This document shows, piece after piece, positions 21,756-37,992 of a stretch of 49,973 nt of DNA. Source of the stretch: Paracoccus sp. (in: a-proteobacteria) (GTDB lineage Bacteria; Pseudomonadota; Alphaproteobacteria; Rhodobacterales; Rhodobacteraceae); contig NZ_JAUNPC010000006.1 in the NCBI RefSeq assembly GCF_030536915.1, forward strand, positions 8,180 to 58,152. Direction: 5' to 3'. A model generated the notes under the pieces. That model was not told the origin of the DNA. It saw nothing but the letters and a program-made list of their open reading frames with translations, and ran no database searches. Both the position numbers and the translations under genes were made by a program. How positions within the stretch are numbered: the stretch's first letter is position 1; each line of letters begins with the position of its first letter.

Positions 21756-21832
21756 GGACAGCCTCTTTTCTACTTCAGGTTGATTGGTCCGACTCTCTCG
21801 TTCTTATAGTTGTTGAGACTGGATAGAACACG

Positions 21833-21847
21833 TTAATGGATAGTTAA
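21833..21847 (-). promoter_or_regulatory. Full CtrA-type binding site upstream of the RTX gene
   Basis: On the minus strand the sequence reads TTAA-CTATCCA-TTAAC, an exact match to the alphaproteobacterial CtrA consensus TTAA-N7-TTAAC. It lies 78-92 bases upstream of the RTX start codon, in promoter position. The match is direct; binding is inferred. Confidence 0.65.
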
Positions 21848-29288: not shown

Positions 29289-29749
29289 TCGCGCATCAGC
29301 GCGTCGAGCCGCGCCCGTTCCTCGGCCGTAAGCCCCGCAGGCGCAGGCGCCGCATCAGGCCGGCGTCCGCGCAGGAACAGGAATGCGCCCACGGCGGCGA
29401 CCAGCGCCATCAGCGGCCCGGCCCAGTAGAGGATCAGGTTCCCGCCCTCGGCCCGCGGCTGGAACAGGACGAACTCGCCGAAGCGGTCGGTCACGGCGTC
29501 GATCACAGCCGCATCGCTGTCGCCCGCTACCAGCCGCTCGCGCACATACAGCCGCAGGTCGCGGCTGATGGGGGCGTTCGATTCGTCGATGTTCTCGCCC
29601 TGGCAGACGGGGCAGCGCAGCATCTGCCCGATCTCTCGCGCGCGGGATTCCAGCGCCGAATCGGCCAGCACCTCGTCCGGCTGCACCGCCCAAGCCGCCT
29701 GCGCCGCAACCAGCGCCAGCACGGCGGCGATCGCCCGCAGCCCCCTCAT
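29276..29749 (-). CDS. ccmH: Cytochrome c maturation protein CcmH
   Basis: CcmH is part of the haem-lyase module that reduces and presents apocytochrome c in the periplasm. The 157-residue protein has a signal peptide (cut after AWA), the redox motif RCPVCQG, and a C-terminal membrane anchor (LILYWAGPLMALVAAVGAFLFL). The ATG at 29749 overlaps the ccmF stop (ATGA), so it is coupled to ccmF. Confidence 0.95.
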   Translation of the reverse strand: MRGLRAIAAVLALVAAQAAWAVQPDEVLADSALESRAREIGQMLRCPVCQGENIDESNAPISRDLRLYVRERLVAGDSDAAVIDAVTDRFGEFVLFQPRAEGGNLILYWAGPLMALVAAVGAFLFLRGRRPDAAPAPAGLTAEERARLDALMRDQES

Positions 29750-31707
29750 TCCGCGGCCACCGGACGGGGTGCGACCTTCCGCGGCGCGGTCGCGGCCACC
29801 CGCCAGCGCCGGTCGGTCAGGCTGATGAGGCCCCCCAGCGCCATCAGCCCCGATCCCATCCAGATCCAGAAGGCGAAGGGCTTGATATAGCTGCGGACGG
29901 CCCATCCCCCGCCGGCCTGGGGATCGCCGATGACAAGGTAGATGTCACCGACGAAGGAGGTGCGGATCGCGGCCTCGGTGGTCGGCATCGCCTGCACCGG
30001 ATAGACGCGCTTTTCGGGATGCAGCACGCCGATCTCGCGCCCGTCGCGCATCACCCGCAAGGCGGCGGTGGTCGAGACGTAGTTCGGACCCTCGACCTCG
30101 GACACGTCCTCAAGGGTGATCTGGTAGCCCGCGACCTCGAAGGTTTCGCCCTCGCGGGCGACGCGGATATCCTCGACCGACCAGGCCATCAGCAGGCTGA
30201 TCCCGACAAAGGTGACGCCCAGGCCCGCATGGGCCACGACCCGGCCCCAGTCGGCGCGCGGCAGCCGCAGCAGGCGCCCTGCCTGTCCGCCCGCGCGCTG
30301 CCAGATGTCCAGGCCCGCGCCCGCGATGATCCAGGTGCCCAGCGCCGTGCCGATCACGGCAAGCCCGCTGTTGCCGGTGGATACCGCATAGACCAGCGCG
30401 GCGACCGCCAGCGTCAGGATCGCGGCGGGCATCAGCGTGCGGTTGGCGCGGGTGATCCGCCCCCGCTTCCATGGCAGGATGGACCCGATGGGCAGCGCCA
30501 CGGCCAGCGCGATCATGAAGGGCGTGAAGGCCTTTTCGAAGAACGGCGCGCCCACCGACAGGCGGCGGTCCCACAGCATCTCGGCCACCAGCGGCCAGAT
30601 CGTGCCGATGAAGACCACGAAGCAGGCGACCGCCAGCAGCAGGTTGTTGAGCAGCAAGGCCCCTTCCCGCGACACGGGGGCAAAGACCCCGCGCGCCGTC
30701 ATGGCCCCTGCCCTTGCTGCGTAAAGCGTCAGCGCCCCGCCCACGAAGAAGGCGGTGATCCCGAGGATGAAGACCCCCCGGGCCGGGTCACTGGCGAAGC
30801 TGTGGACCGAGGTGATGACGCCCGAGCGCACGATGAAGGTCCCGACCAGCGAGAAGCCGAAGGCGAGGATCGCCAAGAGGATCGTCCAGCTTTTCAGCGC
30901 CTCGCGCTTTTCGACGACGATGGCGGAATGCAGCAGCGCGGCGGCGATCAGCCAGGGCATGAAGCTGGCGTTTTCCACCGGGTCCCAGAACCAGAAGCCG
31001 CCCCAGCCGAGTTCGTAGTAAGCCCACCAGGACCCCAGCGCGATGCCGACGGTCAGGAACATCCAGGCGGCTAGCGTCCAGGGCCGCACCCAGCGCGCCC
31101 AGGCGGCGTCCACCCGCCCCTCGATCAGGGCGGCGACGGCGAAGCTGAAGGACATCGAAAGCCCGACATAGCCGAGGTAGAGGAACGGCGGATGGAAGGC
31201 AAGGCCCGGATCCTGCAGCAGCGGGTTGAGGTCGCGGCCGTCGAAGGCGGGCGGGCTCATCCGCGCAAAGGGGTTCGAGGTGAAGATGATGAAGGCCAGG
31301 AACGAGGCCCCGATCGCGCCTTGCACCGACAGCACGCGGGCGCGCAATCCGGGCGGCAGATGCTCGCCGAAGCTGGCGGCGGCGGCGCCGAACAGGGCGA
31401 GGATCAGCACCCACATCAGCATGGACCCTTCGTGGTTCCCCCAGACGCCGGTGATCTTGTAGATCATCGGCTTGGCCGAGTGGCTGTTCTCGTAGACCAG
31501 CGCCACGCTGAAATCCGAGGTGATGAAGGACACCGTCAGCGCCGCGAAGGCGATGCCCAGAAGCCCGAACTGCGCCACCGCGGCGGGACGGGCGCTGTCC
31601 ATCCAGGCGGGCCAGCCGCGCGCGGCGCCGGCCATCGGCACGACCGCCTGGAACAGCGCGACGCCGAAGGCGAGGATCAGCGCGAAATGCCCAAGCTCGG
31701 CAATCAT
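29746..31707 (-). CDS. ccmF: Cytochrome c haem lyase subunit CcmF
   Basis: CcmF is the large inner-membrane haem lyase that attaches haem to apocytochrome c. The 653-residue polytopic protein has the tryptophan-rich WWD region (GGFWFWDPVENASFMPWL) and a large C-terminal periplasmic domain before the last helix. The start at 31707 is fixed by the conserved MIAELGHFAL beginning. There is no ordinary ribosome site; a terminator-like hairpin ends 3 bases before the ATG. A GTA-type lysis pair separates it from ccmE. Confidence 0.96.
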   Translation of the reverse strand: MIAELGHFALILAFGVALFQAVVPMAGAARGWPAWMDSARPAAVAQFGLLGIAFAALTVSFITSDFSVALVYENSHSAKPMIYKITGVWGNHEGSMLMWVLILALFGAAAASFGEHLPPGLRARVLSVQGAIGASFLAFIIFTSNPFARMSPPAFDGRDLNPLLQDPGLAFHPPFLYLGYVGLSMSFSFAVAALIEGRVDAAWARWVRPWTLAAWMFLTVGIALGSWWAYYELGWGGFWFWDPVENASFMPWLIAAALLHSAIVVEKREALKSWTILLAILAFGFSLVGTFIVRSGVITSVHSFASDPARGVFILGITAFFVGGALTLYAARAGAMTARGVFAPVSREGALLLNNLLLAVACFVVFIGTIWPLVAEMLWDRRLSVGAPFFEKAFTPFMIALAVALPIGSILPWKRGRITRANRTLMPAAILTLAVAALVYAVSTGNSGLAVIGTALGTWIIAGAGLDIWQRAGGQAGRLLRLPRADWGRVVAHAGLGVTFVGISLLMAWSVEDIRVAREGETFEVAGYQITLEDVSEVEGPNYVSTTAALRVMRDGREIGVLHPEKRVYPVQAMPTTEAAIRTSFVGDIYLVIGDPQAGGGWAVRSYIKPFAFWIWMGSGLMALGGLISLTDRRWRVAATAPRKVAPRPVAAE

Positions 31708-31709
31708 GG

Positions 31710-31737
31710 AAAAACCCCCGGATGAAGCCCGGGGGTT
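31710..31737 (-). terminator. Terminator/attenuator hairpin directly before ccmF
   Basis: On the minus strand AACCCCCGG and CCGGGGGTT form a 9-bp stem around GCTTCAT, followed by TTTTT whose end lies 2 bases before the ccmF ATG. It can end the upstream holin transcript and would also hide or replace the ccmF ribosome site. Confidence 0.75.
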
Positions 31738-31799
31738 ACAGTAAGGTCTGACGCGCCCCGCCACCAGCCCCAAGGCCGCGCCGGGTTGTCACAGGGCTG

Positions 31800-32411
31800 T
31801 CAGCCCCGCAGCGACCGCGCCCAGTCCCGCAGCGCCGCGTTGTCGGCGAAGTCATCCTCGGGCAGCCTGAAGGACGCGGCCGGGGATGCCTCCGCCGCCG
31901 CGTCCGGGGCGGTCGGGACGACGGGCGCGCGCCAGCCCTCGTCCACGGGAACCTGCGGCGCGACCCAACCCGCATCGCCCGCGACCGTGGCGCGGATCTT
32001 GGCCGAGGGCCAGACTCGGCGGCGGAAATAATGCGCCTCGCGCGCACCGAAATAGAAGCTGACGATGGCGCCCATCAGCCACCACAGGGGTTCCGGCACC
32101 AGCGCCAGTCCCTCCATCCGCATCGAGAAGCCGGGCGGATCGACCATCGCATAGGCAAACAGCCCGATGGTCCCCAGCGTCAGCAAGGGCCGCGGCAGGC
32201 GGTTCAGCCCGTTCATCAGGCTGTCCCACCATGTATGCGGAGCTTGGGCGAACTCGGCCTGCGCCTGGCCGATGGCGCGGGCATAGGCCTCCTCGTCCAG
32301 CTCCATCCGCCGGGTGACGTTGGGGGTGAAGATCTCGGCCACGCTGCCGGCGGCCTCGGCGGCGGCGGCGAACCCGCCGGAACGGGTCAGAAGGCGGTCG
32401 ATCATGCCCAT
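31800..32411 (-). CDS. GTA-type holin (3-TM holin family)
   Basis: A 203-residue membrane protein resembling the three-helix holins linked to gene transfer agents. It has an N-terminal amphipathic region, a hydrophobic helix at LLTLGTIGLFAYAMV and another at LWWLMGAIVSFYFGA, then a long Pro/Ala-rich tail. Holins open the inner membrane so the endolysin can reach the wall. The ATG at 32411 has AAAGGA 7 bases upstream. A second ATG at 32405 forms ATGA with the endolysin stop, and either would overlap it. Two genes of this type are known as the R. capsulatus GTA lysis pair. Confidence 0.8.
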   Translation of the reverse strand: MGMIDRLLTRSGGFAAAAEAAGSVAEIFTPNVTRRMELDEEAYARAIGQAQAEFAQAPHTWWDSLMNGLNRLPRPLLTLGTIGLFAYAMVDPPGFSMRMEGLALVPEPLWWLMGAIVSFYFGAREAHYFRRRVWPSAKIRATVAGDAGWVAPQVPVDEGWRAPVVPTAPDAAAEASPAASFRLPEDDFADNAALRDWARSLRG

Positions 32412-33013
32412 CGGGCGGTCCTTTCCCGGTGCTGCGCGTCGGTCAGGTGATGGCGGGGGGCGATGAATTCCTCGGCCCGGATGATCCAGCCGCCCTTGCC
32501 GCCGTCCTTGCGGCGCGCGAACTTGCGGCTGGCCGGGCGGCCATCGGCCAGCGCATAGTAGTAATTGCGCCGCGCGATGCCGTAGGCGTCGGTCAGATGC
32601 GCCGGAGCCGCAGCAGCAGCGGCCCGGACGGCGGCCTCGGTCCTTGGCCCGACAAGCCCGTCATCCGCGCAGGGAAATCCCATGCGCGACACCAGGCGCT
32701 GCAGGATCTTCACCGCATTGGCGCCCGCGTTCACCTGCATGTCGAAGACGCTGGCCTGCAGCGCTTGCGGCAGGCGGTCCAGGCGCGGGCGGCGGAAGTA
32801 ATGCTCGACATAGATGCGGGCCGCCTGCGCGGGGTCCAGCCTGCGGACATCCGCCTTGTCCACCCGGCCATTGCCGTCGAGGTCCAGCCCCAGGGACCGC
32901 ATGGTTGCGATGGTGACGCCGTGGTTCGTCGCCCCGCCGGGGTCGTCGGGGTCGTCCACGTAACCCCCTTCGCGCGCCACGATGGCCGCGGCGATCTGTT
33001 CCACTGTCTGCAT
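32402..33013 (-). CDS. GTA-type endolysin (glycoside hydrolase 108 family muramidase)
   Basis: The 203-residue protein has the GH108 signature AREGGYVDDPDDPGG with the expected catalytic Glu15 and TNHGVT. A central VFDMQVNAGA and a C-terminal peptidoglycan-binding-like region (DGLVGPRTEAAV) follow. It would cut peptidoglycan glycan strands once the holin lets it through; no signal peptide is visible. It overlaps the holin gene and lies between ccmE and ccmF. A full CtrA-type box is 44-58 bases upstream of its ATG. Confidence 0.85.
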   Translation of the reverse strand: MQTVEQIAAAIVAREGGYVDDPDDPGGATNHGVTIATMRSLGLDLDGNGRVDKADVRRLDPAQAARIYVEHYFRRPRLDRLPQALQASVFDMQVNAGANAVKILQRLVSRMGFPCADDGLVGPRTEAAVRAAAAAAPAHLTDAYGIARRNYYYALADGRPASRKFARRKDGGKGGWIIRAEEFIAPRHHLTDAQHRERTARWA

Positions 33014-33056
33014 CCCTGCCCCCTTTTTCCAAGGCAGGCAGGGTGGCGCGGCGGCG

Positions 33057-33071
33057 TTAACCTTGCGTTAA
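33057..33071 (-). promoter_or_regulatory. Full CtrA-type binding site upstream of the endolysin gene
   Basis: On the minus strand the sequence reads TTAA-CGCAAGG-TTAAC, an exact match to the CtrA consensus. It sits in the 75-base gap between ccmE and the endolysin gene, 44-58 bases from the ATG. In R. capsulatus GTA lysis genes are known to depend on CtrA; here binding is inferred. Confidence 0.7.
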
Positions 33072-33088
33072 CCCACCGCGCGCTGCGC

Positions 33089-33532
33089 TCAGGAAGTCGG
33101 TTCCTTGTAGACGCCCTGCTCCTTCAGTGAATCGGCGACCTCGCGGGGCATGTAGTTCTCGTCATGCTTGGCCAGGATCTCGTCGGCGACAAAGACGCCA
33201 TCGACCATCTGCCCGGTCCCGATCATGCCGGCATTCTCGGCGAACAGGTCCGGCAGCACGCCGCGGAAGCTGACCGGCACGACCTCTCCCCCGTCGGTGA
33301 CGGCAAAGGTGACGGTCTCGCCCTCGCCCCGCGTGATCGAGCCTTCCTCGACCAGCCCGCCCAGGCGGAAGACCTCGCCCGCGGGCGGCGGCGCCTCGGC
33401 CAGCTGGCTGGGCGAGCGGTAAAGGTTGATGCCGTCGCGGAAGCCGTAGCCGATCAGCACGGTCGCCATGACCAGCGCGACAGCCGCCGCGATCAGGACC
33501 TGGATGCGCCGCTTCTTCTTGAGAGATTTCAT
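33089..33532 (-). CDS. ccmE: Cytochrome c maturation haem chaperone CcmE
   Basis: CcmE carries haem covalently on a histidine and passes it to the CcmF/H lyase in the periplasm. The 147-residue protein has a basic N-terminus, one membrane anchor (about 11-30), a beta-barrel domain and the haem-binding motif KHDENYMP with His123 and Tyr127. It lies 18 bases after murI. The other lyase genes are displaced by the lysis pair. Confidence 0.96.
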   Translation of the reverse strand: MKSLKKKRRIQVLIAAAVALVMATVLIGYGFRDGINLYRSPSQLAEAPPPAGEVFRLGGLVEEGSITRGEGETVTFAVTDGGEVVPVSFRGVLPDLFAENAGMIGTGQMVDGVFVADEILAKHDENYMPREVADSLKEQGVYKEPTS

Positions 33533-37914: not shown

Positions 37915-37977
37915 GGGGGCCTCCGGCTGTTTCGCCTTCATTAGTCGCTGGTCCCCGCAAGGGAAAGACCCTTGGGG

Positions 37978-37992
37978 TTAACCATGCGTTAG
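37978..37992. promoter_or_regulatory. CtrA-like site (one mismatch) before the response regulator gene
   Basis: The sequence is TTAA-CCATGCG-TTAG; on the minus strand it reads CTAA-CGCATGG-TTAAC. One base differs from the full CtrA consensus. It is 49-63 bases upstream of the response regulator start, a spacing close to that of the endolysin site. Confidence 0.4.

Follow-up and report, generated by a model that had tools for sequence, protein, structure and literature searches.

A probable gene transfer agent lysis cassette beside ccmE in Paracoccus, and its retention in genomes lacking gene transfer agent markers

An endolysin gene and a holin gene, preceded by a CtrA-type box, lie among cytochrome c maturation (ccm) genes in the window, the name used here for the whole stretch of 49,973 nucleotides of Paracoccus DNA that was analysed. 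This arrangement raises the question of whether the pair is the lysis cassette of a gene transfer agent (GTA), whether its place inside a ccm cluster is exceptional, and whether it serves GTA release only. On the minus strand the gene order is murI, ccmE, endolysin, holin, ccmF and ccmH. A profile search identified ccmE, murI and ccmF as the immediate neighbours of the lysis pair, while the ccmH label follows from position and from the initial annotation of the window. The features of the locus are as follows.

29746-31707, minus strand: ccmF, the downstream neighbour (PF16327, 3.9e-114; PF01578, 2.6e-51)
31710-31737, minus strand: GC hairpin (31713-31737) followed by T5, which probably terminates the lysis transcript; the element stops 2 bases short of the ccmF ATG
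31800-32411, minus strand: holin, 203 aa, PF11351 "Holin of 3TMs, for gene-transfer release"
32402-33013, minus strand: endolysin, 203 aa, GH108 N-acetylmuramidase with PG_binding_3, of the same kind as rcc00555
33056-33071, minus strand: full CtrA-type box TTAACGCAAGGTTAAC before the endolysin, position 33056 being the C that follows TTAA-N7-TTAA
33089-33532, minus strand: ccmE, upstream of the lysis pair, with 75 bases between it and the endolysin ATG (PF03100, 2.3e-30)

The endolysin matches PF05838 (2.2e-27), PF09374 (2e-18) and phrog_315, an endolysin family (6.7e-34), and passes the NCBIfam model NF040573 "holin-associated N-acetylmuramidase" with 343.7 bits against a cut-off of 240. Seven PDB sequences match it at E <=0.01, led by 7dnp_A (2.8e-19). 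The holin, whose reading frame shares 10 bases with that of the endolysin, matches PF11351 at 1e-26 (94.3 bits, cut-off 24.8), and PHROG and NCBIfam searches with it gave no match. The initial annotation had called a GTA-type endolysin/holin pair between ccmE and ccmF, and this call holds, with NF040573 and PF11351 both above cut-off and the coordinates unchanged. It had described a three-helix holin, but the hydropathy scan found two clear hydrophobic (membrane) segments, not three.

The insertion of the pair inside a ccm cluster had been considered unusual. Neighbouring genes were read by tblastn and then counted by distance, the named loci compared being the best 80 of 220 found. ccmE ends at most 400 bp before the endolysin in 54/64 Paracoccus loci and in 53/58 other named Rhodobacterales loci with enough sequence, while ccmF starts at most 1.1 kb after the holin in 59/65 and 44/63 loci, respectively. 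In an extra GTA-positive set, chosen by endolysin score, ccmE lies within 400 bp in only 5/10 loci and ccmF was found in 7/9; ccmE is equally close in 8/9 loci from the genomes lacking GTA markers that are treated below. An unusual insertion site was therefore ruled out, since ccmE precedes the endolysin in most loci read. At L070, the sole locus tested in this respect, argC (TIGR01850) is located between murI and ccmE.

The endolysin family is present in 379 of the 390 genomes in an even sample of the order (375 above the cut-off) and in 136 of 139 sampled genera, all labelled as one family. The holin was found in 59/61 genomes of the genus sample, including the window's own, and in 0/40 genomes of other families. 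The 16 best named matches all carry a Paracoccus label, and these relatives place the window's genome in this genus. Because the endolysin occurs so widely and its ccm neighbours are conserved, the pair was most likely in place before the family diversified, with neighbours moved or lost in some lines.

A full CtrA-type box 44-58 bases before the endolysin had also been proposed, and it is confirmed. TTAA-N7-TTAA lies at 33057-33071, the 44-58 bases being counted from the A of the endolysin ATG, and with its following C reads TTAA-CGCAAGG-TTAAC. With at most one mismatch, TTAA-N7-TTAAC is expected 0.22 times in the window, against 6 matches in 3 regions (both strands counted). Among 64 distinct Paracoccus loci, 57 have the full TTAA-N7-TTAA within 150 bp upstream of the endolysin, compared with a mean of 0.04 and a maximum of 2 in first-order Markov resamples, and 7 lack it; the remaining 565,930 bp of the same loci contain zero copies with spacer 7. 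For this count, 10 of 75 Paracoccus loci were dropped (nine exact duplicates, one too short), as was L046, which has a run of N. The bases of the spacer vary, while its length stays 7. Where no ccmE was found upstream, the box is nevertheless present before the endolysin in 8 of 9 Paracoccus loci, indicating that it belongs to the endolysin.

The loci of other genera differ in this respect. After L074 was dropped from 64 such loci (no upstream sequence), the full box was found before the endolysin in 0/63, and one TTAAC half-site 20-80 bases before the endolysin in 48/63 (resample mean 1.5); three full boxes occur in the remaining 705,057 bp. Paracoccus haematequi (L089), with a holin 49% identical, was counted among the others, since L047-L110 were taken as one block. 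Half-sites in other genera and full boxes in Paracoccus suggest that the half-site is general and the full box an elaboration, so that the full CtrA box, as judged from these loci, is a Paracoccus trait and not an order-wide one. According to the available parts of a previous study, CtrA half-sites were reported for the lysis genes of R. capsulatus (PMC9638019), in agreement with the TTAAC half-sites of other genera, whereas most Paracoccus carry the full TTAA-N7-TTAA; the R. capsulatus side of this comparison is taken from the literature.

The window's own assembly (G000; 3.16 Mb, 86% complete) contains 11 TTAA-N7-TTAA sites. Spacer 7 accounts for 11 of the 18 TTAA pairs with spacers 3-12 (p 1.6e-7 against equal spacers), while the reversed pattern, used as a control, gave 2 for spacer 7 and 15 for all spacers. 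Ten of the 11 boxes precede a gene start or coincide with one, and the eleventh (contig C40) is located between converging gene ends. The genes with a box are the lysis pair, dprA, radC (where the box overlaps the first possible start codon), a cckA-like kinase, a fliG-type gene, and genes for a PAS protein, a GT2/MshEN glycosyltransferase, a Hint_2 protein and the window's RTX protein, together with an ORF on C67. A link of dprA and of GTA recipient genes to CtrA is reported for R. capsulatus. CtrA itself is encoded in the genome (NF045991, 410.5 bits, cut-off 350), and the cckA-like hybrid kinase, at 487.9, falls below the NCBIfam CckA cut-off of 1000. A search for GafA through its DnaA-like domain (PF08299) gave one strong match, which is DnaA-type.

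The GTA capsid cluster that had been proposed as a check was sought in the same genome and found on contig C223, which carries GTA terminase, portal, protease, capsid, adaptor and tail genes, including TIGR02217, the GTA distal tail protein, which carries the label Rcc01695. Genes of this cluster are referred to by the names gp12 to gp15, which we take to apply here. The initial annotation had regarded absence of GTA structural genes and of ctrA as refuting its reading; with both present in the genome, these two absences are excluded. No full box was found in the 40 kb read around the genome's own GTA cluster, and among the Paracoccus GTA promoters 1/17 read has one. This scarcity agrees with the lack of CtrA binding to the RcGTA promoter reported, in the accessible part of the article, for R. 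capsulatus (PMC6363796).

The gene identities, the gene order, the conserved full box, CtrA, the CckA-like kinase and the GTA structural genes together argue that the locus is very probably a Rhodobacterales GTA lysis cassette, of the kind of rcc00555/rcc00556, at its ancestral position just after ccmE. Counted against this assignment, which is made from sequence comparison, are the 7/64 loci without the box, the persistence of the endolysin in GTA-less genomes, the cckA-like kinase below its cut-off, the GafA search that gave a DnaA-type match only, and the set in which ccmE is near in just 5/10 loci. The initial reading is thus partly supported, being apparently right on the kind of the locus and on its control, and wrong on the oddity of its place.

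Several known systems resemble the cassette. The R. capsulatus pair rcc00555/rcc00556 likewise consists of a lysozyme/endolysin and a holin outside the main GTA cluster, and according to the sections available of previous studies depends on CtrA and GafA (PMC3423380, PMC6363796, PMC9638019). In one of them, GafA was reported to induce the endolysin only with ctrA present and to bind the lysis promoter (PMC6363796, available in part); because GafA is needed there alongside CtrA, the earlier description of a "self-contained" CtrA-driven unit was too strong. In Dinoroseobacter shibae, the endolysin/holin pair Dshi_1756/1757 was implicated in GTA release and, in the part of that article at hand, studied within the quorum-sensing regulon, and its likeness to the Paracoccus pair leaves the promoter aside (PMC6473078). 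Host lysis also frees a related GTA in Caulobacter, where LypABC differs in being a CARD-NLR-like system, canonical holin/endolysin genes not having been found there according to the available text (PMC13236601). Host CtrA has further been proposed to time lysis in alphaproteobacterial phages with CtrA sites ("lytic deferment"); as described in the portion accessible, these are free phages, whereas the Paracoccus pair would be a host-resident GTA cassette (PMC9437464).

By analogy with R. capsulatus, phosphorylated CtrA and a GafA-type activator would act at the box, and the endolysin and holin transcript would be switched on in a few cells in stationary phase. The holin would then open the inner membrane and the muramidase cut the wall, releasing particles as the cell bursts. 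The hairpin would halt the transcript ahead of ccmF, which would restart from its own promoter.

Regarding this hairpin, the initial annotation stated that a terminator closes the pair. The structure at 31713-31737 folds at -17.9 kcal/mol (z -4.1) and is followed by T5, in keeping with that statement, but it was not among the calls of the generic terminator scan. By a crude criterion, a hairpin with a T-run occurs in the 110 bp before ccmF in only 24/61 Paracoccus loci. In the window (31705-31745) and its relatives, the closing hairpin directly precedes the ccmF ATG, and its G-run is the nearest ribosome-site-like stretch to that ATG; in some other Paracoccus, the hairpin and T-run sit 41-53 bases before ccmF. 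ccmF may restart within or past the terminator.

The cassette thus belongs to a known kind and occupies a known place, and the lead that it offers is its persistence in genomes where GTA structural genes are missing. TIGR02217 is missing from 42 of the 390 genomes of the order (20 listed directly and 22 obtained by subtracting positives from the sample, the count agreeing), and the endolysin is kept in 38 of these 42, with all matches at E <=3.9e-97, far above the family cut-off. When the capsid of the window's own genome was used as the query, these 42 genomes showed an intact capsid in one (G195), fragments in G124, G249 and G349, matches of <=38% identity in G182, G214, G414 and G461, and nothing in 34; as controls, 6/6 GTA-positive genomes of other genera matched at 445-493 bits. 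Consequently, among genomes with neither tail marker nor intact capsid, a GTA absence judged by two markers only and with a capsid query from Paracoccus, the endolysin occurs in 37/41, spanning 26 genus labels. Nine of these 37 loci, the best-scoring ones, were read; in each, the endolysin has 203 aa and shares bases with a holin ORF of 164-193 aa, and ccmF is nearby in 6/9.

Within Paracoccus, TIGR02217 is missing from 3/66 genomes of the genus sample (G002, G018 and G021). The damage to the GTA cluster is different in each of the three, while the endolysin, holin and full box are all kept. In G002 (L212), the capsid is cut at about residue 126 and continues in one frame into a presumed gp15-type gene from residue 347, which is an internal deletion; the holin of this genome is diverged, with a partial PF11351 match only. 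In G267, a fourth such Paracoccus, tail marker and capsid are both missing and the endolysin is present. The presence of the endolysin in genomes without GTA structural genes is not predicted by a purely GTA role. Recurrent GTA loss has been reported, the endolysin and holin being unnamed in the part of that article available (PMC10883770), and a partial literature search found no mention of lysis-gene retention without GTA.

One explanation, which falls somewhat short of an even chance, is that retention reflects a lag only, the genes being silent after loss of the GTA or its activator and slowly decaying. The endolysin is indeed lost more frequently where the tail marker is missing (4/42 against 7/348, p 0.02), and the G002 holin has diverged. 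However, the uniformly strong endolysin matches in the 38 genomes and the 26 genus labels of the GTA-less carriers argue against slow decay, as does a pairwise endolysin omega of 0.076 for the GTA-less pair G206/G215, although dS is near saturation there (1.78).

Alternatively, the cassette could be a CtrA-driven programmed lysis module that serves a purpose besides GTA release. Sharing a regulon with dprA, it would let out DNA or other goods, be borrowed by GTAs and be kept for its own benefit; we regard this as possible but on balance doubtful. It is favoured by the 37/41 genomes that keep the endolysin, by the full-length pair in all nine GTA-less loci read, with ccmE in its usual place in 8/9, and by the three Paracoccus with differently damaged clusters that retain pair and box. 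The more frequent loss of the endolysin without the tail marker speaks against it, and the GTA losses may be recent, the two-marker test with a Paracoccus capsid also bearing on this count. The holin is likewise unfavourable: besides the partial match in G002, its omega reaches 0.335 in the pair G002/G054 and 0.40 in G178/G234, compared with 0.090-0.162 in four GTA-positive pairs; the mixed pairs span 0.098-0.400. For the endolysin, the four GTA-positive pairs give omega values of 0.038-0.080 and five mixed pairs values of 0.094-0.200, and for ccmE, murI and ccmF omega is 0.046-0.188 in readable pairs and 0.029-0.050 in G206/G215, for which holin dS was not computable. Such sequence-derived values do not settle the choice between an independent role and a lag.

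A more specific proposal, which we consider unlikely at present, is that the pair is an old host-owned, CtrA-gated lysis module of the Rhodobacterales that outlived the GTA cluster after repeated losses; in Paracoccus its control would have been strengthened to the full box, tying lysis to the small dprA/radC/cckA-like regulon. That the pair entered the ccm operon recently, as a prophage remnant or as cargo, is highly improbable. The endolysin and holin are phage-type genes, but most of the Paracoccus and other Rhodobacterales loci read have the pair at this position, the endolysin family is present in 136/139 genera and the immediate neighbours are ccmE, murI and ccmF; the conserved gene order refutes a recent insertion.

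Returning to the GTA lysis cassette, a lysis gene kills the cell that uses it, yet it is kept in 37/41 genomes of the order in which no complete GTA head and tail is apparent. If the pair were expressed there, GTA-less Rhodobacterales would own programmed lysis without particles, which, if true, bears on why costly GTA lysis persisted. The reverse situation was also observed: seven genomes (G117, G185, G245, G253, G327, G345 and G479) have the GTA tail marker with the endolysin-family match absent, and another lysis route may exist in them.

Finally, some minor sequence elements were observed. GCAACG is found in the 150 bp before the endolysin in 61/64 Paracoccus loci, the window itself having GCAGCG, and GTTGCG within 420 bp upstream of the GTA cluster in 16/17 Paracoccus promoters, own included (L214-L230 without L220, plus L194, read upstream of GTA gene 1), occurring twice, 22-25 bp apart, in 8 of them. 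It is possible that endolysin and GTA promoters share an activator element with the core GYGTTGC. Around the CtrA box (33025-33092), a strong RNA hairpin is possible in a transcript coming from ccmE (-34.4 kcal/mol, z -2.8). Elsewhere in the window, a second full CtrA-type box is located at 21832-21847, about 78 bases before the gene for an 864-aa RTX-repeat protein, and a CtrA-type site with one mismatch, CTAACGCATGGTTAAC, at 37977-37992.
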